Assembly (NCBI GenBank): GCA_029559435.1
Contig: JAKQBZ010000154.1
Location: forward strand, 1 to 34,790
Direction of reading: 5' to 3'
Source of the DNA: Deltaproteobacteria bacterium
GTDB lineage: Bacteria; Desulfobacterota; Syntrophorhabdia; Syntrophorhabdales; Syntrophorhabdaceae
DNA: 34,790 nt
This document shows positions 361-27,906 of this stretch, in pieces. Below the pieces are notes generated by a model that worked only from the letters and a program-made list of their open reading frames with translations, was not told where the DNA came from and did no database searches. How positions within the stretch are numbered: the first letter of the stretch is position 1; each line of letters opens with the position of its first letter. The position numbers were made by a program, and so were the translations under genes.

Positions 361-1603
361 TCAGCCTCCTTTGCTCATAGAATTGAGAAAATCCTGGTTT
401 GACTCTGTGTCGACCATCTTTTCGAGGAGAAACTCCATCGATTCAACGGGGTTCATCGGCTGCAGGACCTTCCTCAGCAGCCACGTTCTTGAAAGGTCGT
501 TGCTTTCCAGCAACAACTCCTCTTTTCTCGTGCCCGATTTGTTTATGTCAATGGCGGGGAAGACCCTCTTCTCCGCGAGCTTTCTGTCAAGATATATCTC
601 CATGTTTCCCGTACCCTTGAACTCCTCGAAGATCACTTCGTCCATCCTGCTCCCCGTGTCTATCAATGCCGTTGCAACGATCGTCAGGCTCCCCCCCTCT
701 TCAATGTTTTTCGCTGCCCCGAAAAAGCGCCTCGGCTTCTGCATCGCAGATGCGTCGATGCCCCCGGAGAGTATCTTCCCGCTTGACGGGACCACGGTAT
801 TATATGCCCTTGCGAGCCTCGTTATGCTGTCGAGCAGTATCACTACGTCCCTCTTGTGCTCCACGAGCCTCTTGGCTTTCTCGATAACGATCTCCGCCAC
901 CTGAACATGTCTAGTGGCGGGCTCGTCAAAGGTCGAGCTTATGACCTCTCCTTTTACCGAGCGTATCATGTCCGTAACCTCCTCCGGCCTCTCGTCAATG
1001 AGGAGGACGATAAGAAAAATCTCTTTGTGGTTCTTCGTAATGCTGTTGGCGATGTCCTGAAGGAGCATCGTTTTCCCGGTCCTCGGCGGGGCGACGATGA
1101 GCCCTCTTTGCCCCTTGCCGATGGGGGTGAAAAGGTCCATTACCCTGGTGGAAAGGCTGCGCTGTCCCGTTTCGAGCTTTATCCTCTCGTCGGGATATAT
1201 AGGGGTAAGGTTGTCGAAGATTATCTTATCCCTGACGACCCCGGGGTCGTCGAAATTTATTGATTCGACCTTTAAGAGGGCGAAGTACTTTTCGTTGTCT
1301 TTGGGGGGGCGGATCTGTCCCGAGGTCGTATCCCCTGTCCTCAGCCCGAATTTCTTGATCTGCGAGGGTGATACGTATATATCGTCCGGGCCGGGCAGGT
1401 AGTTTGAGTCGGTAGATCGCAAAAAACCAAACCCCTCTGAAAGGATCTCCAAAACCCCTTCCCCGTATACCGATTCGTTCTTGTCTACGAAGGCCTGGAG
1501 TATGGCGAATATAAGCTCCTGTTTTCTCAGCCCCGCCGCGTTCTCAACGTTCAACTCCCTTGCCATGTGTGTGAGTTCTCCTATCTTTTTGCTTTTCAGC
1601 GCG

Positions 1604-1614
<11 letters not shown>
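361..1614 (-). CDS. rho: Transcription termination factor Rho
   Basis: A 417-residue protein, the usual Rho length. The N-terminal helical domain (residues 1-45, [18 protein letters not shown]) leads into an OB-fold RNA-binding domain with GFGFLR near 61-66. The ATPase core carries the Walker A motif APPRTGKT at 175-182, then [13 protein letters not shown] and the Walker B strand [16 protein letters not shown]. Rho is a hexameric ATP-driven RNA translocase that releases RNA polymerase at untranslated rut sites. No insertion is seen between the RNA-binding and ATPase domains. The start has GGGAGG upstream inside coaE, whose 3' end it overlaps by 11 bases. It sits between coaE and rpmE in a continuous leftward run. 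Confidence 0.98.
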
Positions 1615-5665
<4,051 letters not shown>

Positions 5666-5781
5666 ATATACTCCTCATATAATTAATATACGCTGTGTAT
5701 ATGTTAAAAAAGATATATATACATAGAAATAAACAGAAAATATTTTATTAACTATGTTTAAAAGATATCAGGAATGTTCAA
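5666..5781. other. AT-rich dnaA-dnaN spacer
   Basis: These 116 bases are strongly AT-rich, with TA-rich runs such as gatatatatacatag, and encode nothing recognisable. The spacer carries the dnaN ribosome binding site (GAGGAG on the minus strand). It has one very degenerate DnaA-box-like word (TGTGTATAT, 5694-5702, two mismatches from TGTGGATAA). In some bacteria this spacer holds part of a bipartite origin, but the DnaA-box evidence here is weak. Confidence 0.4.
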
Positions 5782-7098
5782 TCATGTTGACTTAAGTTTC
5801 TGTATGAGCTTTTCAACAGCGCTTTTTAACTCCTTTTTAACGTTCATATCACCCTTTATTTTGTTAACCGAATGAATAATGGTGGCGTGGTCCTTGCCGC
5901 CAAATTTTTCACCTATACTAACAAGAGAAGAGTCCGTCAGCTCCCGAGAGAGATAAATAGCGATCTGCCTTGGTACAAGAATCGATTTTATTCTCTTTTT
6001 AGATCTTAAATCGGACGGGCTTATTGAAAAATACGAAGACACCGCTTTTATAATCATATCTATGGTGATTTCTCTTCCCTTCTCTTTAATAATATGCCCG
6101 ATCACCTCTTTGACGAGATCGACGCTGATATTTACATTATTTAAAGAAGCAAAGGCGCCAACCCTTATCAAAGACCCTTCGAGCGACCGGATGCTGTCCT
6201 CCGAATTAGAAGCGATAAAAAAGGCAACATCCAGCGGAAGGACAATACCCTCTTGCTCGGCCTTCTTGTTAAGTATTGCAACCTTGGTTTCTATGTCAGG
6301 AGACTGTATGTCGGCAACAAGCCCCCACTCAAAGCGAGACTTAAGGCGTTCCTCAAAATTTTCAATATCCCTTGGAAACTTATCGCTCGTTACGACGATC
6401 TGTTTCATGTTGTCGTAGAGCGTGTTGAATGTATGAAAAAACTCCGCCTGCGTCCTTTCCTTCCCGGCGATAAACTGTATATCATCAATGAGCAGTATAT
6501 CCATCTTTCTAAATCTATTTCTAAACTCCTCCATCTTCTCATATCTGATAGAATTAATAAGTTCATTAGTAAATGATTCGGCCGTTATATAACAAATCCT
6601 GTCAGGGTTAATATCCCCATGGCTGACAAGGAAATTTCCTATGGCATTTAAAAGGTGCGTCTTTCCAAGCCCCACCCCCCCATATATAAATAGCGGGTTA
6701 TAGGTCTTGCCCGGGTTGGTTGCTACCGCAAGACAAGCGGCGTTGGCGAACTGGTTGCTTGAACCCACAACGAAACTTTCGAATGTATACCTCGTGTTGA
6801 AGGATCCATACTGGCTTGGGCGCCTTACAACAACCCCCTTCTTCTCTCCGCGACCATCCTCTTTTTTCAAAACATATTCAATAGTTACATCGTTCTTTAC
6901 AAGATCTTTTATGAGAGAGACCAGTATGGGCTCAAAATTTTCTACGACCCAGTCCCGAAAGAACGCATTCGGCACAAGGATCATGCACCTGTTGTCTTTA
7001 AAGTCGGCCAAGACAAGCGGCTCAATCCATGTTTTATAGCTGTCTTCATTAATTATGTTTGCAATTTTAGGCTTAATTTGTGAAAGAATATCATTCAT
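5782..7098 (-). CDS. dnaA: Chromosomal replication initiator protein DnaA
   Basis: A 438-residue AAA+ protein of normal length. Domain I is at about 1-75 (SYKTWIEPL). Domain II is a short charged linker (80-100). Domain III has YTFESFVVGSSNQFA, Walker A GGVGLGKTHLL (140-150), Walker B ILLIDDIQFI (201-210), and EERLKSRFEWGLVADI, which includes the arginine-containing sensor region. Domain IV ends with the DnaA signature FGGKDHATIIHSVNKI, which reads DnaA boxes. The start ATG has only a weak upstream AAAG. It heads the leftward dnaA-dnaN-gyrB-coaE-rho-rpmE-prfA block. Confidence 0.98.
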   Translation of the reverse strand: MNDILSQIKPKIANIINEDSYKTWIEPLVLADFKDNRCMILVPNAFFRDWVVENFEPILVSLIKDLVKNDVTIEYVLKKEDGRGEKKGVVVRRPSQYGSFNTRYTFESFVVGSSNQFANAACLAVATNPGKTYNPLFIYGGVGLGKTHLLNAIGNFLVSHGDINPDRICYITAESFTNELINSIRYEKMEEFRNRFRKMDILLIDDIQFIAGKERTQAEFFHTFNTLYDNMKQIVVTSDKFPRDIENFEERLKSRFEWGLVADIQSPDIETKVAILNKKAEQEGIVLPLDVAFFIASNSEDSIRSLEGSLIRVGAFASLNNVNISVDLVKEVIGHIIKEKGREITIDMIIKAVSSYFSISPSDLRSKKRIKSILVPRQIAIYLSRELTDSSLVSIGEKFGGKDHATIIHSVNKIKGDMNVKKELKSAVEKLIQKLKST

Positions 7099-11645: not shown

Positions 11646-11732
11646 GGGCAGTTCTTTGATAATTATATCGCCGACAGGATGTCCTTGCAAGGCAGCCTGC
11701 CAGACGAGCGGCCCCCCTGACAACCATTTTGA

Positions 11733-11767: not shown

Positions 11768-12520
11768 ATGGAGAAGATCGTAAAAAGCTATTCCAACCTT
11801 GACCTGCATAGAAAAATAGGCGATATCATAGAGGGGCATTCCAGCAACAAAGAGGAGATACGGGGCGTGGCCGCGGGGCTTGTCGACTGGCAGCGCGTCC
11901 GCACCGTCCTTGACCTGGGCTGCGGATACGGGTGGTTCGAAGAGATCATCGACGGGAGCTTCGACGTTGTATTCGGCATCGACTACCTCAGCGAAAACCG
12001 GGAAGGGTTTCTCAGAATCGCAGAAAAGATAGCAAAAAAAGCCCTGTTTCTGCAGGCCCGCCTCCCGGCAGCCATCGACATGCCTTCGGAGAGCTTCGAC
12101 CTTGTTGTTGCAGCATACTCTCTCTATTTTTTTCCTGAAATGATAGGGGAGGCCAAAAGGCTGCTAAAGGGCGGGGGGCAGTTTCTCGTTATAACGCACA
12201 GCGAGTCAATGCTTACAGAAGGCGAAAAATATTTCGATTTCAGCGAATTAAGGAAGGTGATCCATAGATTTTCGGCAGAGAACGGAGAGGCTTTGTTGAG
12301 AGAGCACTTTGACGACATCGTTCCTGTTGATTATCCGAACGCCCTTGTCTTTGGCAGAAGCGAGGGCGGCGACCTTTCGCAATACATAGACTTTAAAAAA
12401 GAATTTATATCGGTAGACGTCGACCCTGAACTGGTAAAGGAAAAGATGCTCGCAGAATTACAAAGGCTGGGAGTGCTGCGGTTTAACAAGAACGACAGGA
12501 TATTTATTGTAAAGAAATGA
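11768..12520 (+). CDS. Class I SAM-dependent methyltransferase (Methyltransf_11-like)
   Basis: A 250-residue methyltransferase. Motif I is VLDLGCGYGWFEE (47-59), post-I VFGIDYLSEN, motif II SFDLVVAAYSLYFFPEMIGEAKRLL, and motif III LLKGGGQFLVITH. The last 100 residues (HFDDIVPVDYPNALVFGRSEG onward) are not a domain I recognise. The substrate is unknown. The ATG at 11768 is preferred to an upstream TTG (11729) because the -10 box of a good promoter covers the region between them. The gene is coupled by ATGA to the Nudix fusion that follows, so the two products probably act in one process. Confidence 0.82.
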   Translation: MEKIVKSYSNLDLHRKIGDIIEGHSSNKEEIRGVAAGLVDWQRVRTVLDLGCGYGWFEEIIDGSFDVVFGIDYLSENREGFLRIAEKIAKKALFLQARLPAAIDMPSESFDLVVAAYSLYFFPEMIGEAKRLLKGGGQFLVITHSESMLTEGEKYFDFSELRKVIHRFSAENGEALLREHFDDIVPVDYPNALVFGRSEGGDLSQYIDFKKEFISVDVDPELVKEKMLAELQRLGVLRFNKNDRIFIVKK

Positions 12521-13545
12521 AGAGAAGATCTTACTGCAGCTTTTGCGGAAAACAGCTTGACGTGGACACCCTCGAAGGCAAGGACCGCCAGGTCTGCAAA
12601 GACTGCAAAAAGGTATATTATGAAAACCCGCTACCGGTGGCCTCTGTGATCCTCGCAAACAAAGACCGGGAGATATTGCTTGTAAAAAGGGAGCGCGAGC
12701 CGTTCAAAGATATGTGGTGCTGCCCGATCGGGTTTGCCGAGGTGGGCGAGAGCATCGAGGCGGCCGCATTAAGGGAGTTGAAAGAAGAGGCTGGCATTGA
12801 CGGGAGCATTGTTCAGCTCATCGATGTAAGCTCACACAGAAACCCCTTTTACGGGGACCTTCTCATCGTCTCCTTCGAGGCAGAGAAGCTCGGCGGAAAA
12901 GAGAAGGCGGGCGACGATGCAAGCGATTACGGGTATTTTCCCGCAATGAACCTCCCCAAGCTTGCGTTCGATTCCCAGGAGAAGGCGATCCAGAGGTTCA
13001 TAGAGCTTAAGAGGGACCTCTGGAGCATGCACGACTCCCTTGAAACGTTCGTCGAGAGGACCATCCAGGACAAGATCGTGTATCCCGGGAACCTCCTTTC
13101 CGACGAACTGACAATAGCCGTGCAGGAAAATTCGGGCAAGATAGTAGACCTCTGGCTGAACGACATCTCTTCCAACCCTTCAACAAAGTCCTACCACCGC
13201 CACGACAGGGAGGACCTCGTTTCCAGGGCCATGTTCATTCTCGGACAGTTCGAGCAGTGGCTGAAAGGCGCAAAGACGGAGAGCGAGTTCAAGAATTTTT
13301 ATTATATGCTCGGTCGTCAGCGGAGGCAAGAAGGCATACCCCTGGAGGAGCTTGTGAGCTCCCTGAGCATCCTTAAGAAACATATATGGATGTTCACATA
13401 TTCTTTCGGGGTGTGGGAGAAGGCCGTCGATATATACCGCATGTTTGAGCTCGGCGAGAGGCTTGTTTATTTTTTTGATAAGATCGTCTATTATACTGTG
13501 ACGGGTTACAGGTCAGCAGCGAAGCGGTCCGCGAATAGACTTTAA
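12517..13545 (+). CDS. Zinc-ribbon Nudix hydrolase fused to an RsbRD-N-like helical domain
   Basis: A 342-residue protein with three parts. Residues 1-35 form a zinc ribbon (C7, C10, C27, C30). Residues 38-165 are a Nudix hydrolase with a full Nudix box from G72 to I94 (GX5E, then RELKEEAGI), expected to hydrolyse a nucleoside-diphosphate-linked compound. Residues about 170-342 are helical, and their YYMLGRQRRQEGIPLEELVSS segment resembles RsbRD_N/globin-like sensory domains found in stressosome proteins and kinases. That resemblance is from memory of the family pattern. The fusion would join nucleotide hydrolysis to a sensing domain. It starts at ATGA inside the methyltransferase stop. Confidence 0.8.
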   Translation: MKRRSYCSFCGKQLDVDTLEGKDRQVCKDCKKVYYENPLPVASVILANKDREILLVKREREPFKDMWCCPIGFAEVGESIEAAALRELKEEAGIDGSIVQLIDVSSHRNPFYGDLLIVSFEAEKLGGKEKAGDDASDYGYFPAMNLPKLAFDSQEKAIQRFIELKRDLWSMHDSLETFVERTIQDKIVYPGNLLSDELTIAVQENSGKIVDLWLNDISSNPSTKSYHRHDREDLVSRAMFILGQFEQWLKGAKTESEFKNFYYMLGRQRRQEGIPLEELVSSLSILKKHIWMFTYSFGVWEKAVDIYRMFELGERLVYFFDKIVYYTVTGYRSAAKRSANRL

Positions 13546-13598: not shown

Positions 13599-14981
13599 GT
13601 GACAAAGGAAACGGGTGGAAAGACACATAAAAATACGGTTTTGATGGTGACAACGCTGTCCTCTTTTCTAACCCCCATGTCGCTCTCAACGGTGAATGTC
13701 GCGCTGCCGACGATCGCCCAGGAATTTCTCATGAACGCCATCACCTTAAGCTGGGTCGCGACGGCATACATACTGACCGCCGCAGCGCTCCTTATGCCTT
13801 TTGGCAGGATCGCCGACATCTACGGGAGGAAAAAGGTTTTTATCTGGGGCACGTATGTTTTTACGGCGGCATCCTTTCTTCTGGGGATAGCATGGTCTGC
13901 GGGGCTGCTTATTGTTTTCAGGGCCCTTCAGGGCATTGGCAGCGCCATGCTCTTTGCTACTGCAATGGCAATGCTAAGCTCGGCTTTCCCTCCGGGAGAG
14001 CGCGGAAGGGCGCTCGGCATTAATGTGGCGGCGGTCTATTTCGGGCTTTCCTGCGGCCCCCTTTTGGGCGGTGTGCTGACGCAGCACATGGGCTGGAGAA
14101 GCATCTTTTTGTTCAACGTCCCCCTCGGCATAGTTATAATCGTTTTTTCTCTCTGGAAGCTGCGCACAGAATGGGCGGAATCAAAGGGAGAGCCTTTTGA
14201 TCTTGTCGGGTCTTTCATCTATTGCGCGATGCTTGTATCCCTCATGTGCGGTTTTTCCATGCTGCCGGGAACGGCAGGTTCGCTTCTGATCGCCGCTGCG
14301 ATTGCAGGCATTTGCATCTTTGTTGCCTGGGAGCTAAGAACGAGCAAGCCGATCCTTGACATAGCCCTTTTCAGAACGAACAAGGTCTTCACCCTCTCCA
14401 ACATTGCGGCGCTTATCCACTACAGCGCCACATTTGCCGTGAGCTTTCTCTTAAGCCTTTACCTGCAGCACATCAAAGGCTTGAGCCCGCAGGCGACGGG
14501 GGCCGTTCTCATTTCGCAGCCTCTGGTCCAGGCGGCCTTTTCGCCCATCGCAGGAAGGGCGTCCGACAGAATGGAGCCGCGGATCGTCGCCTCAACGGGC
14601 ATGTTCATTACCGCCATCGGCCTGTTTCTCCTGACCTTCCTTGAAGCAGGCACCGGCACGTGGTTCATCGTGTCGACGCTCGCGCTTCAGGGGTTTGGCT
14701 TTGCGCTTTTTTCGTCCCCGAACGCGAACGCGATCATGAGCTCCGTGGAAAACAGGCACTTTGGCGTAGCGTCGTCAATGCTCGGAACGATGAGGCTCCT
14801 TGGGCAGGTGTTCAGCATGGGCATAGCAATGATGGCCTTCGCGCTCTACATCGGTGCCGTTGAGATTGCGCCACAGCACTACCGGATGCTCTTAAAGAGC
14901 ATAACGGCAATATTCACCATCTTTGGTTTTCTCTGCATCGGGGGAGTCTTTGCGTCGCTGACAAGGGGAAGGCTCAGGTAA
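13599..14981 (+). CDS. MFS multidrug-type exporter, DHA2 (EmrB/QacA) family
   Basis: A 460-residue membrane protein with many hydrophobic segments, probably 14 as in the DHA2 drug:proton antiporters. The N-terminal VNVALPTIAQEF is typical of EmrB/QacA proteins. Motif A is FGRIADIYGRKKVF, and RALQGIGSAMLFATAMAML and FGLSCGPLLGGVL (motif C-like) follow. The start is GTG at 13599, with CGAGG upstream. The substrate cannot be predicted. It follows the Nudix gene after 53 bases and may be co-transcribed. No regulator gene of the TetR or MarR type lies next to it. Confidence 0.88.
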   Translation: MTKETGGKTHKNTVLMVTTLSSFLTPMSLSTVNVALPTIAQEFLMNAITLSWVATAYILTAAALLMPFGRIADIYGRKKVFIWGTYVFTAASFLLGIAWSAGLLIVFRALQGIGSAMLFATAMAMLSSAFPPGERGRALGINVAAVYFGLSCGPLLGGVLTQHMGWRSIFLFNVPLGIVIIVFSLWKLRTEWAESKGEPFDLVGSFIYCAMLVSLMCGFSMLPGTAGSLLIAAAIAGICIFVAWELRTSKPILDIALFRTNKVFTLSNIAALIHYSATFAVSFLLSLYLQHIKGLSPQATGAVLISQPLVQAAFSPIAGRASDRMEPRIVASTGMFITAIGLFLLTFLEAGTGTWFIVSTLALQGFGFALFSSPNANAIMSSVENRHFGVASSMLGTMRLLGQVFSMGIAMMAFALYIGAVEIAPQHYRMLLKSITAIFTIFGFLCIGGVFASLTRGRLR

Positions 14982-21000: not shown

Positions 21001-21401
21001 ATGATCGCATAGGTGTTTGCGCCGACCCCCGTGCCGAGGAAGGTGTCATGAATATCCTTGAGCCTTACGATGTTGCCGTTAAGGTAGTATTCATTGGTGC
21101 CGTCCCTGTAGATCCTTCTCTTGACGTTGATCTCTCTGCTCCCGTCGGTGAGATCGACGGAGACCTCGGCGATGTTGACGGGCCTTCTGCCGTTGCTCCC
21201 ATGGAAGATCACGTCGCCCATGTCTTTGATCCTCAGAGATTTTGTCCCCCGCTCCCCGAGCGCCCAGACGATGGCGTCAACGATATTGCTTTTCCCGCAG
21301 CCGTTTGGCCCCACGATAGACGTGATCCCGTCGCCGAACTGGAAGACGGTTCTGTTCAAGAAGGATTTAAAACCGAAAAGTTCAAGCCTTAATAATCTCA
21401 T
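18066..21401 (-). CDS. smc: Chromosome segregation protein SMC
   Basis: An 1111-residue SMC ATPase, slightly short against the usual 1150-1190. The head has MRLLRLELFGFKSFLNRTVF, Walker A GPNGCGKSNIVDAI (31-44) and the Q-loop region. Long charged coiled coils run from about 160 to 480 and 650 to 930. The hinge sits between, around LINLIKVAEERERALEKFFSSELEYHVLTARD. The C-terminal head has signature LLSGGEKALISLALLLSI and Walker B FALMDEIDAPLDDAN, then IVFITHN. SMC with ScpA and ScpB compacts and separates newly copied chromosomes; those partners are not in the window. The start overlaps the gltX stop by four bases, so the two are co-transcribed. Confidence 0.96.
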   Translation of the reverse strand: MRLLRLELFGFKSFLNRTVFQFGDGITSIVGPNGCGKSNIVDAIVWALGERGTKSLRIKDMGDVIFHGSNGRRPVNIAEVSVDLTDGSREINVKRRIYRDGTNEYYLNGNIVRLKDIHDTFLGTGVGANTYAIIEQGKIENFAQMKPLERRVVVEEASGITRFEEKKREAIGRMDEVSTNLDRVEDIYSEVTKSFEKAEGEWQRWKAYKELADKLHEIDRHILLQGYSRLTKRIGKIIERQQEVEEEARKEEEGKEKLKQELGAKDAEFSLTDNIIRQLEIDIKGLEKDMEGRLVEIDYINEEKTRLEKQGLALAEEKAALISRADSYKNDIADLGRQVQAYGLDLTKEEGDELRLRETTEGLKAKIEEQEEKVEDGRTKLFVAMSALTDIRNKISEIERIAQERRKREEKRIQEEQRLKEILAELEVRCSSLKEALGKRVEEKLSALSGESETLKESERCAKELDEAKNAVERLKGEKQAKEDVFRQLGGYDEAAEPSGGDTGKLINLIKVAEERERALEKFFSSELEYHVLTARDPAGIAEAVEKGEGNYVFFPQRGMFTLNGDDVEINVQWIEAVQDALLRIEQGEEGVFMNDTVFVDSRGFIIREKDDKGVDLKKFKEKVRLEKELKELAAVIQGQEIFVRDLQSRYDATNSAYAERKRYREEKEKEAGDVEKEIIVVETELKTATEKLQELSSRLDVFDETAQASAVQLLQEKALLEKEKEDIESDMMSLREGLTAVKQGYEASLSAWHEITIGLERRRNALRMLHENIEQKGVAIQDIADEILGKDKETERLGAAIGECAGKISKFEKEYEDLRSDSERYLTRLEELKTALGNLHAEKHALQERIDAVNKAIDKIRSKREGADRDIAILTDKKDQITERLLTVYHIENPEGVELLPNPRIEEERAAISGQIADMGEINFRAEKEYLELKERASFLAQQKEDLKNAMDSLKKTITKIDNLSKELFNETFEKINDSFKKFTEMLFKGGKGYLSVNQENGGIEMFVQPAGKKVIRMELLSGGEKALISLALLLSIMDTKPSPFALMDEIDAPLDDANLSSLIEIIRGMSIKTQIVFITHNRITMESSNTIYGITMEEEGISKTVSVRL

Positions 21402-22789
21402 GATATCGCTTCTATCGCCCTGCGCAACCTCTTCTCAACGGTTTCTCTTCCGAGGATGCCGATCACCTCGAATATCCCAGGGCTCACGGTCCTGCCGCAA
21501 AGGGAGACCCTGATTGGCTGTATCACATTTACAAGCTTTGTGTTGTAGTCGCGGGCCATATTTTCTATCAGTCTTTTTTGTTCATCCTCATCGATCGAAC
21601 GAAGGCCCTTGAAGCCCTCTAAGAAATTCTCAAGTATAGGCTTCGTCGCAGGCGTCAGAAATTTTTGTTTCGCCGCCTCTTCGTAAGCAACATCGTCGAG
21701 AAAGAAAAAGGCGGCCATCTGCGCCATCTCTTTCAGCGTCCTTGCCCTGCCTTTTAAATTGGCCGTAATGGGCACGAGCATTTCCCTGTTTGATATGGCA
21801 AGGCCAAGGCCTTCCAGGAAAGGAACGAGCCTTTCTGCAACGTCTTCCAGGGGGAGCGTCTTGATATAGTGGCCGTTGAGCCACAGCAGCTTGTCCATGT
21901 CGAAGATCGCCGGGGACTTGCCGACATTGGGGAGGTCGAACATTTCTATCAAGCCCTCCCTTGAAAAGATCTCCTGGTCCCCATGGGCCCATCCCAGCCT
22001 GGCGAGGTAATTCATGAGCGCTTCAGGCAGGAACCCTTCATTTCTGTATTCAAGGAGCGATGTGGCGCCATGGCGTTTGCTGAGGCGGGACCTGTCCTTG
22101 CCGTGTATAAGGGGCACATGGGCAAATTCCGGCATCGGGTAGTTGAGTGCCCTGTAGATGAGGATCTGCCTGGGGGTGTTGTTGATGTGGTCGTCCCCCC
22201 GTATGATATGGGTGATGCCCATAAGCGCATCATCAACGACAACAGTAAAGTTATACGTAGGGGTGCTGTCGCTTCTCAGGATAACAAGGTCGTCAAGCTC
22301 TTCGCACCGGAAGGAAATGGTGCCCCTGACAAGATCGTTGAAGCTTACTTCCCCGGTGAGCGGGGCCTTGAACCGGATAACATGGGGCATATCGCTGGCC
22401 CGGTCATGGGCGTCCCTGCACGTCCTGTCGTAGGTTGGTTTTTTTCCTTCCTTTAACGCGACCTTTCTCTTTTCTTCGAGCATCTCCGGCGTGCAATAAC
22501 ACTTATAGGCACAGCCTTCCCTGAGAAGCCGGTAGGCGTGCTCACGGTAAATGTCCATCCGCTCTTTCTGGAAGTGAGGCCCTTCGTCCCAGTCTATGCC
22601 GAGCCAGCCAAGCCCCTGGAGGATGTCTTGCACGTACACCTCTTTTGACCGCTCGATGTCAGTGTCTTCGATCCTCAGCACAAAGGTGCCGCCTTTGTGC
22701 TTTGAAAAGAGGTAATTAAAAAGCGCAGTCCGCGCCCCACCAATATGGAGATTGCCTGTCGGGCTTGGCGCAAATCTTGTTTTGACCAA
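21398..22789 (-). CDS. gltX: Glutamyl-tRNA synthetase, copy 1
   Basis: A 463-residue class I synthetase. The HIGH-type motif is HIGG (15-18) in FAPSPTGNLHIGGARTAL, the KMSKS-type motif is RLSKR (235-239), and a zinc site C97, C99, Y120, C124 is intact. GluRS joins glutamate to tRNA-Glu and, in bacteria without GlnRS, also to tRNA-Gln for later amidation by GatCAB. A second gltX lies 3.7 kb away, so the two may divide tRNA-Glu and tRNA-Gln. The start is TTG at 22789 with CAGAGGG upstream. The gene leads the gltX-smc operon. Confidence 0.95.
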   Translation of the reverse strand: MVKTRFAPSPTGNLHIGGARTALFNYLFSKHKGGTFVLRIEDTDIERSKEVYVQDILQGLGWLGIDWDEGPHFQKERMDIYREHAYRLLREGCAYKCYCTPEMLEEKRKVALKEGKKPTYDRTCRDAHDRASDMPHVIRFKAPLTGEVSFNDLVRGTISFRCEELDDLVILRSDSTPTYNFTVVVDDALMGITHIIRGDDHINNTPRQILIYRALNYPMPEFAHVPLIHGKDRSRLSKRHGATSLLEYRNEGFLPEALMNYLARLGWAHGDQEIFSREGLIEMFDLPNVGKSPAIFDMDKLLWLNGHYIKTLPLEDVAERLVPFLEGLGLAISNREMLVPITANLKGRARTLKEMAQMAAFFFLDDVAYEEAAKQKFLTPATKPILENFLEGFKGLRSIDEDEQKRLIENMARDYNTKLVNVIQPIRVSLCGRTVSPGIFEVIGILGRETVEKRLRRAIEAIS

Positions 22790-26529: not shown

Positions 26530-27906
26530 ATGGTCAAGGTGAGATTTGCTCCAAGCCCTACGGGCTACCTTCACGTCGGCAATACGAGAACGGCGCTGAT
26601 GAACTACCTCTTTGCAAGAAAGGAGCGGGGAACGCTTGTGCTCCGCATCGAAGATACGGACATCGAGAGATCTACCGTAGACTACGAAAGATCTGTTTTA
26701 GATGACCTGGAGTGGCTCGGGATCTCCTGGGACGAAGGCCCGGTGCGGCAGACGGACAGGCTGGCGGCCTATCGCGCATACGCAGGAGACCTCCTTGAAA
26801 GAGGCCTTGCCTACAGGTGCTACTGCCCCGAGGAAGAGCTCGAAAGGAAGCGAAAAGAGGCTATGCGGAAAGGCGAGCCGCCGAGGTATGACGGAACCTG
26901 CAGGGACCTGTCGCCGACAGCCAGGGAACGGATAGAGGGCGAAGGAAGACCTTTTGTTGTAAGGTTCAGGTCGTCCGGAAAACCTGTCCATTGGGCCGAT
27001 AGGATTTGCGGCGACTTCCACTTTCCACACCATGCCGTAGATGATTTTATTCTCCTCAAGCAGTCGGGGGTCCCTTCATATAACTTTGCGGCCGCCGTGG
27101 ACGACATTGAGATGGAAATAACACACGTTATCAGGGGGGCTGACCACGTGCCGAACACCCCCAAGCAGATCATGCTTATCGAGGCCCTTGGCAAAACGCC
27201 CCCGCAATATGCCCACCACTCGCTGCTTCTTGGAAATGACCGGAAGCCGTTGAGCAAAAGGCATGGCGCAGCGAGCGTGCGGGATTTCCGGGAGATGGGG
27301 ATTCTCAGCGCGGCGCTTACAAATTACCTCGGCGTCCTGGGAAGAAGCGTTCCGCAGGGAATCCTGGGCATGGACGAGCTCGCGGCAACATTTTCCCTGT
27401 CGTCCTTTTCGCCTTCCGACGCGATCTTTGATATTGATAAGCTGACCTGGTTCAACAAGGAATACCTGCGAAGCGCCGGCCCCGAAGAGATCATGGAAAT
27501 GCTGGGCCTCCGGGGCGATTACGGAGGCAAGATCCTGGCTTTGCGGGAAAACGCTTCAACCCTGAAGGACATGAAAGAATATCTGCGCATCTTCGAAGAC
27601 GCCTCAGTGGATGAGGAAGGCCGCGCATACCTGTCTCAGGCCGGGTCGCTGGATAGCTTCGCGCAGGGACTAAGAGATCTGCTCGCCGAAAACAATTCCC
27701 TTCCCTTCGATGAACTGGTCAGGGCGATGGAAGGCAAGGGAGGATTCAAAAGGAAAGAGCTCTTTATGGTTTTGCGGATACTCTTCACGGGGAGAAAGAG
27801 CGGCCCCCCGCTGAAGGACATATTCCATCTGATCCCGAAAGATATTATAATAGAGCGGATCGGCCGCTGCCTCACAGATGGAAGCGGGAAGGGCACAAAA
27901 GGATAA
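26530..27906 (+). CDS. gltX: Glutamyl-tRNA synthetase, copy 2
   Basis: A 458-residue class I synthetase clearly different from copy 1 at 21398-22789. The motifs are HVGN (15-18) in FAPSPTGYLHVGNTRTAL and PLSKR (240-244), with zinc ligands C97, C99, Y120 and C124 at the same positions as copy 1. The anticodon-binding C-terminal domain differs more than the catalytic half. In bacteria with two GluRS, one is often specialised for tRNA-Gln; which copy does this here cannot be read directly. It follows ispF after 21 bases and is probably co-transcribed. Confidence 0.94.
   Translation: MVKVRFAPSPTGYLHVGNTRTALMNYLFARKERGTLVLRIEDTDIERSTVDYERSVLDDLEWLGISWDEGPVRQTDRLAAYRAYAGDLLERGLAYRCYCPEEELERKRKEAMRKGEPPRYDGTCRDLSPTARERIEGEGRPFVVRFRSSGKPVHWADRICGDFHFPHHAVDDFILLKQSGVPSYNFAAAVDDIEMEITHVIRGADHVPNTPKQIMLIEALGKTPPQYAHHSLLLGNDRKPLSKRHGAASVRDFREMGILSAALTNYLGVLGRSVPQGILGMDELAATFSLSSFSPSDAIFDIDKLTWFNKEYLRSAGPEEIMEMLGLRGDYGGKILALRENASTLKDMKEYLRIFEDASVDEEGRAYLSQAGSLDSFAQGLRDLLAENNSLPFDELVRAMEGKGGFKRKELFMVLRILFTGRKSGPPLKDIFHLIPKDIIIERIGRCLTDGSGKGTKG

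Follow-up and report, generated by a model that had tools for sequence, protein, structure and literature searches.

A zinc-ribbon Nudix hydrolase with a predicted globin-fold tail, paired with a methyltransferase in Syntrophorhabdaceae and other families

The window, by which we mean the whole stretch of 34,790 nucleotides analysed, encodes a zinc-ribbon Nudix hydrolase that carries a C-terminal tail predicted to be a globin fold of the non-heme RsbRD_N/HisK_N (pXO2-61-like) type. The linkage of this fusion to one methyltransferase family is near-perfect. We give a probability of about one half to the reading in which a sensor gates the Nudix hydrolase and the enzyme acts within a two-enzyme module with the methyltransferase. 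The features of the locus are listed in Table 1.

Table 1. Features of the locus (positions are those of the window unless another locus is named)
Feature	Position	Strand	Basis or remark
SAM methyltransferase gene, coding for 250 aa with ATG 11768 as start	11768..12520	+	Methyltransf_11; longer TTG start at 11729 possible
ATGA stop/start overlap of methyltransferase and Nudix genes	12517..12520	+	direct sequence reading
Nudix-globin fusion gene (tail fold predicted)	12517..13545	+	342 aa, translated ORF
Zinc-ribbon cysteines C7-C10...C27-C30	12535..12606	+	invariant in 23/23 aligned fusions
Nudix hydrolase domain, residues 38-165	12628..13011	+	PF00293; fold match to 3cng and NudC
Nudix box GFAEVGESIEAAALRELKEEAGI, residues 72-94	12730..12798	+	ORF translation; invariant columns
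Long helix 152-184, predicted linker from Nudix domain to tail	12970..13068	+	AlphaFold2 full-protein model
Sensor-type domain with predicted globin fold, apparently without heme, residues 194-341	13096..13539	+	tail model, Foldseek, VIA-align, 3pmc profile, RsbRD_N/HisK_N
MFS transporter, accessory neighbour	13599..14981	+	MFS_1 187.4 bits
Methyltransferase-Nudix single ORFs	L118 (G320) 2987-4525; L137 (G281) 2877-4367

The fusion gene and its Nudix half

The first half of the protein is a zinc-ribbon Nudix enzyme with a perfect box, as an earlier note on this DNA had proposed. In a Pfam scan of the ORF, NUDIX (PF00293) matched residues 40-159 with 68.5 bits against a cut-off of 21.1. Zn_ribbon_Nudix (PF14803) matched residues 6-36 with 22.0 bits, under its cut-off of 25.6, and the four cysteines are conserved in every fusion aligned. 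The stretch GFAEVGESIEAAALRELKEEAGI fits the pattern of a Nudix box. Residues C7, C10, C27, C30, G72, E78, R86, E87, E90 and E91 are invariant across the 23 aligned fusions. The closest named locus is from a Syntrophorhabdaceae MAG (L061), with a tail 98% identical to that of the window.

Two other ideas about the gene were tried and rejected. Stop-codon recoding was considered due to TAG codons inside the matches of three congeners; reading TAG as a stop gives normal ORFs of 336 aa for all three genomes (L041, L042, L043), and in L005 the TAG codons sit at the extreme end of the gene. A function in anti-phage defence was suggested by PADLOC matches to PDC-S07 and mad2, which span just the Nudix and methyltransferase domains.

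Predicted fold of the tail

Modelled alone with AlphaFold2, the tail forms eight helices (mean pLDDT 84.3, pTM 0.79) with the arrangement of a globin, rather than the coiled helical extension that the earlier note had considered. The model of the full protein (pLDDT 79.1, pTM 0.47) does not fix the relative orientation of the domains, and pLDDT falls below 50 within residues 178-191, where the linker helix ends. The tail had been described as about 170 residues long; the domain proper is somewhat shorter (about 150 residues, from 194 to 341) and is reached by that helix.

Foldseek searches with the tail model returned globin sensors, pXO1-118 and pXO2-61 in the upper rows and neuroglobin and phycobiliproteins in the lower ones, with a best E of 4.8e-3 and no match at or below 0.001. 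The N-terminal domain of RsbR (2bnl) ranked 39th. In VIA-align, rows 1-15 are all globin domains (mostly heme sensors) or pXO1-118/pXO2-61, with Z of 13.2-15.9 over 130-144 residues; for five test models that are mostly helical the best Z was typically 14, which means that a Z of 14-16 is not decisive by itself and the sequence-profile match described below carries much of the argument for a globin. The individual values are Z 15.9 for DosC (140 aligned residues, rmsd 2.0), 15.5 for BpeGReg, 15.0 for pXO1-118, 14.5 for AfGcHK and 14.3 for pXO2-61 (130 aligned, rmsd 2.3). Further globin-like proteins, phycobiliproteins for example, follow at Z 12-13.

Sequence relationships of the tail

The earlier note had likened the tail to the N-terminal domain of RsbRD. 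Alone, the window tail scored 18.1 bits with RsbRD_N (PF14361; cut-off 24.3), a match that includes the segment singled out in that note, GRQRRQEGIPLEELVSSLSI (residues 266-285), and 18.1 bits with HisK_N (PF09385; cut-off 24.4). With the whole protein as query the scores were 16.4 and 15.9 bits. Four of nine tails scanned passed the RsbRD_N cut-off: one belongs to a genuine Nudix fusion (L023, 30.1 bits) and three are stand-alone homologues (L022, 31.0; L024, 28.9; L027, 26.8). The other five were not over it, among them two fused tails (L033, L049) for which the scan gave no hit. The HisK_N cut-off was passed by just one of the nine (L024, 26.0 bits). At E <= 0.1, RsbRD_N matched 11 and HisK_N 10 of 15 tails.

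A profile built from these 15 tails and searched against the PDB matched the non-heme globin sensor pXO2-61 best (3pmc, E 5.7e-6). The related pXO1-118 gave a weaker match (3pmd, E 0.013) and was outranked by orotidine decarboxylase (3ru6, E 0.0045), presumably a chance hit. The resemblance recurs in relatives and agrees with both the profile-to-structure and the fold comparison, and is therefore more than chance. Assignment of the tail to the RsbRD_N/HisK_N domains is supported, and the outcome that it would turn out to be a known Nudix-associated domain unrelated to RsbR did not occur.

No STAS domain was identified in the fusion ORF by the Pfam scan, and RsbRD_N, the one stressosome family searched for across the window's genome, matched this gene alone at E <= 1. 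These results give no sign of a tie to a stressosome.

Conserved residues and the heme question

We aligned the tails of 61 relatives, 44 from fusions (2 of them broken) and 17 from stand-alone proteins. The most conserved positions are D321 (61/61), W213 (60/61) and R315 (59/61). Helix F, which would carry a proximal histidine, probably corresponds to residues 255-271, going by the order of helices in the tail model. No column within 255-271 has a histidine in 5 or more of the 61 tails. Position 289 is a histidine in 48 of the 61 tails, but H289 sits on the following helix, predicted to be helix G.

One stand-alone tail (L030), the sole one among 15, matched Protoglobin (PF11563) with 16.9 bits and E 0.0065, under the cut-off of 25. 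Profile-profile and HMM comparison of the tails with globin-coupled sensors of relatives, for which 10 of 12 loci were used after two that failed the His-motif filter were dropped, gave nothing significant (best E 0.018, 4.2 bits). Given this lack of significant similarity, tail residues cannot be mapped one-to-one to those of the heme sensors. From the missing histidine in predicted helix F, which carries the argument, and the missing similarity to heme-sensor globins, we infer that the tail is a non-heme globin domain.

Distribution

At E <= 1e-3 the tail was detected in 45 genomes out of 99, a count to which the genome of the window contributes. Within the window's own family it is present in 36 of 39 genomes and missing in G008, G027 and G028. 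In a phylum-wide sample of 297 genomes searched at E <= 1e-40, 60 genomes matched. Full-length fusions are present in 27, and broken ones in 2 more (over contig ends in G307 and over two adjacent ORFs in G326), which gives 29 genomes with a fusion. A tail-less Nudix relative is encoded in 28 genomes, and 3 have a tail-only match. A single scan of contigs yielded 27 loci; among their titles are Syntrophorhabdaceae, Syntrophorhabdus, Syntrophus, Syntrophobacterales and unspecific delta- or proteobacterium. Plasmid records held partial Nudix matches only, none of the 18 covering 80%.

Ten loci with stand-alone tails were read by eye and have varied neighbours. At two of the loci with stand-alone globin-fold proteins (L027 4949-5419, L028 5063-5533) the gene lies directly before one for an NfnA-like oxidoreductase, followed in L027 by an NfnB-like gene (both by eye). 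Genome G074 has two tail-type genes in tandem at each of two places (L031 5048-6414, L036 4987-5947). One member of the L031 pair, 275 aa long, has a long hydrophobic C-terminal part.

Linkage to a methyltransferase

The ATGA coupling noticed earlier was read at the junction of the two genes, and the link proved stronger than had been suggested. The upstream gene matches Methyltransf_11 with 41.7 bits (cut-off 21.2). Of 43 single-ORF fusions examined, 40 are immediately preceded on their own strand by a homologue of this methyltransferase gene, with a 4-base overlap in 25 of the 40; the 43 were drawn from loci L021-L060 and L118-L157, with the window and further loci outside the count. Loci L050 and L157 are cut by contig ends, and in both genomes the methyltransferase is on another contig. 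The one exception is L021, from a genome (G043) that is 79% complete, where no methyltransferase was identified at E <= 1e-10.

Across the phylum sample, the methyltransferase profile (E <= 1e-30) matches 31 of 297 genomes. These are exactly the 29 fusion genomes and two in which methyltransferase and Nudix form one ORF. The chance of identical random sets is about 1e-42, a value that is merely illustrative because the genomes are related and, with eight families represented, the co-occurrence is not phylogenetically independent. In two genomes of the window's family without the fusion (G027, G028), the methyltransferase was also not found. In G281 and G320 the methyltransferase and a zinc-ribbon Nudix are a single polypeptide without the globin tail. 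The tail is thus not needed everywhere. Among the tail-less Nudix loci that are not fused to a methyltransferase (26), we examined 18, and none has a methyltransferase within the flanks covered. These flanks are about 3 kb on each side for most loci, while four have just 0.6-1.5 kb on one side; the examined set comprised 20 of the 28 tail-less loci, the two methyltransferase-Nudix ORFs included.

A midpoint-rooted tree of the Nudix domains was built from stretches of at least 150 residues that score above 100 bits. A supported split (100/98) places 46 rows on one side and 17 tail-less rows on the other. The 46 comprise 41 fusions with a methyltransferase (window included), the 2 methyltransferase-Nudix proteins, 2 fusions whose locus has no methyltransferase (L021, L050) and the tail-less protein of G008.

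The methyltransferase is of class I and, in the search for solved structures, had no close relative; the best match is 1xxl (YcgJ), with E 1.9e-13 over profile positions 47-192. Residues H14, N27, H144, E151, N191, K241 and D243 are invariant in 16 aligned rows and are, from their conservation, candidates for the active site.

Other genes of the locus

Clustering of the neighbouring genes revealed no further member of the module that is conserved from family to family. An MFS transporter follows the fusion in 18 of 26 loci, all from the window's family (18/23, and 0/3 in other families). In the other families, cytochrome c-like and ResB-like genes follow (L048, L056), or a ResB-like gene alone (L058), as judged by eye. 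The tail-less Nudix gene of G008 (L136 3070-4207), which is also without a methyltransferase, is overlapped by an MFS transporter ORF.

Genes for Rho, GyrB and DnaN are encoded on the reverse strand of the window at 361-7098, together with an ORF that is DnaA-like (by eye, from its homologue). The module may therefore be near a replication origin. Two genes for glutamyl/glutaminyl-type tRNA synthetases, about 4 kb apart, are at 21398-22789 (reverse strand) and 26530-27906 (forward strand).

On an Azoarcus plasmid (L201 575-3534), a tail-less zinc-ribbon Nudix gene follows genes for UbiD, UbiX and DUF120 in a phenylphosphate carboxylase cluster. Speculatively, this Nudix might supply dimethylallyl phosphate for synthesis of prenyl-FMN. 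No relatives of UbiD, UbiX or DUF120 were identified among the ORFs of 80 loci compared (blastp, E <= 1e-5). The window's genome has two UbiD matches, at places other than the fusion locus.

Possible function

The tail may be a sensor. In the mechanism proposed, the globin domain would bind a small non-heme ligand or signal, and the ligand in its pocket would act via the helix at 152-184 to alter how the Nudix domain works or assembles. Both enzymes, methyltransferase and Nudix, would act on the same metabolite or in consecutive steps, and the shared substrate may be some nucleoside-diphosphate-linked compound. RsbR and the non-heme globin sensors that control sporulation offer precedents. Points against a sensor-gated module are the methyltransferase-Nudix proteins without a tail, the fusion of G043 without a methyltransferase, and the Nudix protein of G008, which has neither. 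The tail could also serve only dimerisation or substrate binding. A more tentative proposal, which may well prove wrong, is an undescribed two-enzyme pathway or signalling circuit of anaerobes: a metabolite linked to a nucleoside diphosphate would be made or marked by the methyltransferase and destroyed on demand by the Nudix enzyme, gated by a heme-free globin sensor.

Several alternatives to sensor gating can be weighed against these observations. It is possible, if doubtful, that the globin-fold tail is a structural module for dimerisation or scaffolding that perhaps docks the methyltransferase and senses nothing. D321, W213 and R315 could be conserved for structural reasons, and the two methyltransferase-Nudix proteins manage without the tail. 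VvRsbR, whose N-terminal domain is of the globin-coupled type with heme, is dimeric within its stressosome (PMC9237108). However, stand-alone copies occur in diverse contexts, which would be expected of a sensor or adaptor more than of a scaffold with a fixed role. We think it unlikely that the pocket of the tail holds the hydrophobic part of a substrate, with the Nudix enzyme specific for a lipid- or prenyl-like diphosphate. Globin folds do enclose a hydrophobic pocket, and the related Azoarcus enzyme is encoded beside UbiX, UbiD and DUF120, but no relatives of these three were identified among the 80 loci compared, the Azoarcus protein (181 aa) has no tail, and the linker helix suggests a separate domain.

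It is improbable that the Nudix enzyme is under heme-based control, with the tail as a globin-coupled sensor responding to O2, NO or redox state. The Syntrophorhabdaceae hosts are anaerobes, DosC, BpeGReg and AfGcHK are among the nearest folds, and both the weak Protoglobin match of one stand-alone tail and the frequent H289 could be read in favour of heme. Against this, H289 is on predicted helix G, the stretch assigned to helix F is without a conserved histidine, and the globin-coupled sensors of relatives showed no significant similarity to the tails. Least credible of all is an ordinary housekeeping Nudix with the tail and the methyltransferase as neutral neighbours. Many Nudix domains carry additional C-terminal parts, and tail-less relatives exist in the phylum sample (28/297), but co-inheritance of the methyltransferase with the fusion or the single-ORF protein, in identical sets of 31 genomes, disfavours this explanation, as do the single-ORF methyltransferase-Nudix proteins and conservation across the eight families.

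If the more tentative proposal of such a pathway or circuit is correct, this would be the first Nudix enzyme known under the control of a globin-fold sensor. Non-heme globin sensors are known to precede kinases and STAS domains in proteins, and few of their signals have, to our knowledge, been resolved. Fusion to an enzyme that can be assayed directly would provide a simple readout for finding the ligand of a non-heme globin, and the near-strict pairing with a methyltransferase is a concrete entry to a pathway. Routine annotation would show just 'NUDIX hydrolase' and 'class I SAM methyltransferase'.

Comparison with known systems

In the open-access literature we found no paper on a Nudix enzyme joined with RsbRD, RsbRD_N or a non-heme globin domain. 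Nothing on topic joined Nudix, globin and sensor domain there, and for RsbRD_N, PF14361 and HisK_N the mycobacterial stressosome was the sole relevant topic. The combination of Nudix and globin tail and the pairing with a methyltransferase thus appear undescribed in that literature, with the parts being of known kinds. The architecture may already be present in domain databases through automatic annotation.

The zinc-ribbon-like part and the Nudix fold are common to the fusion and its fold matches, 3cng and NudC. The database entry for 3cng names only a NUDIX hydrolase. Identity with NudC, an NAD(H) pyrophosphatase, is not supported: the fusion scored 49 bits with NCBIfam NF001299, for which 158 are needed, and it lacks a NudC-type motif after the Nudix box.

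The globin-coupled sensors DosC, BpeGReg, AfGcHK and HemAT share the overall fold of the tail, with an alignment over model residues 1-168 that includes the first helix. Unlike them, the tails have no conserved histidine in the expected helix and no significant similarity in sequence. The domain order of known globin-coupled sensors is also the opposite of that in this fusion. RsbRD_N is the N-terminal domain of the stressosome protein RsbRD; homologues of the tail exceed its cut-off, and the predicted fold of the tail is comparable to that of the RsbR N-terminal domain (2bnl), whereas the window tail stays under it and the fusion has no STAS domain. The closest likeness is to pXO2-61, pXO1-118 and HisK_N, which provide the best PDB profile match and Z of 14.3 and 15.0 (the two pXO proteins), and with which the tails agree in being without a conserved heme-ligand histidine. 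Those domains stand alone or before a histidine kinase, whereas the tail of the fusion follows a Nudix enzyme at its C-terminal side.
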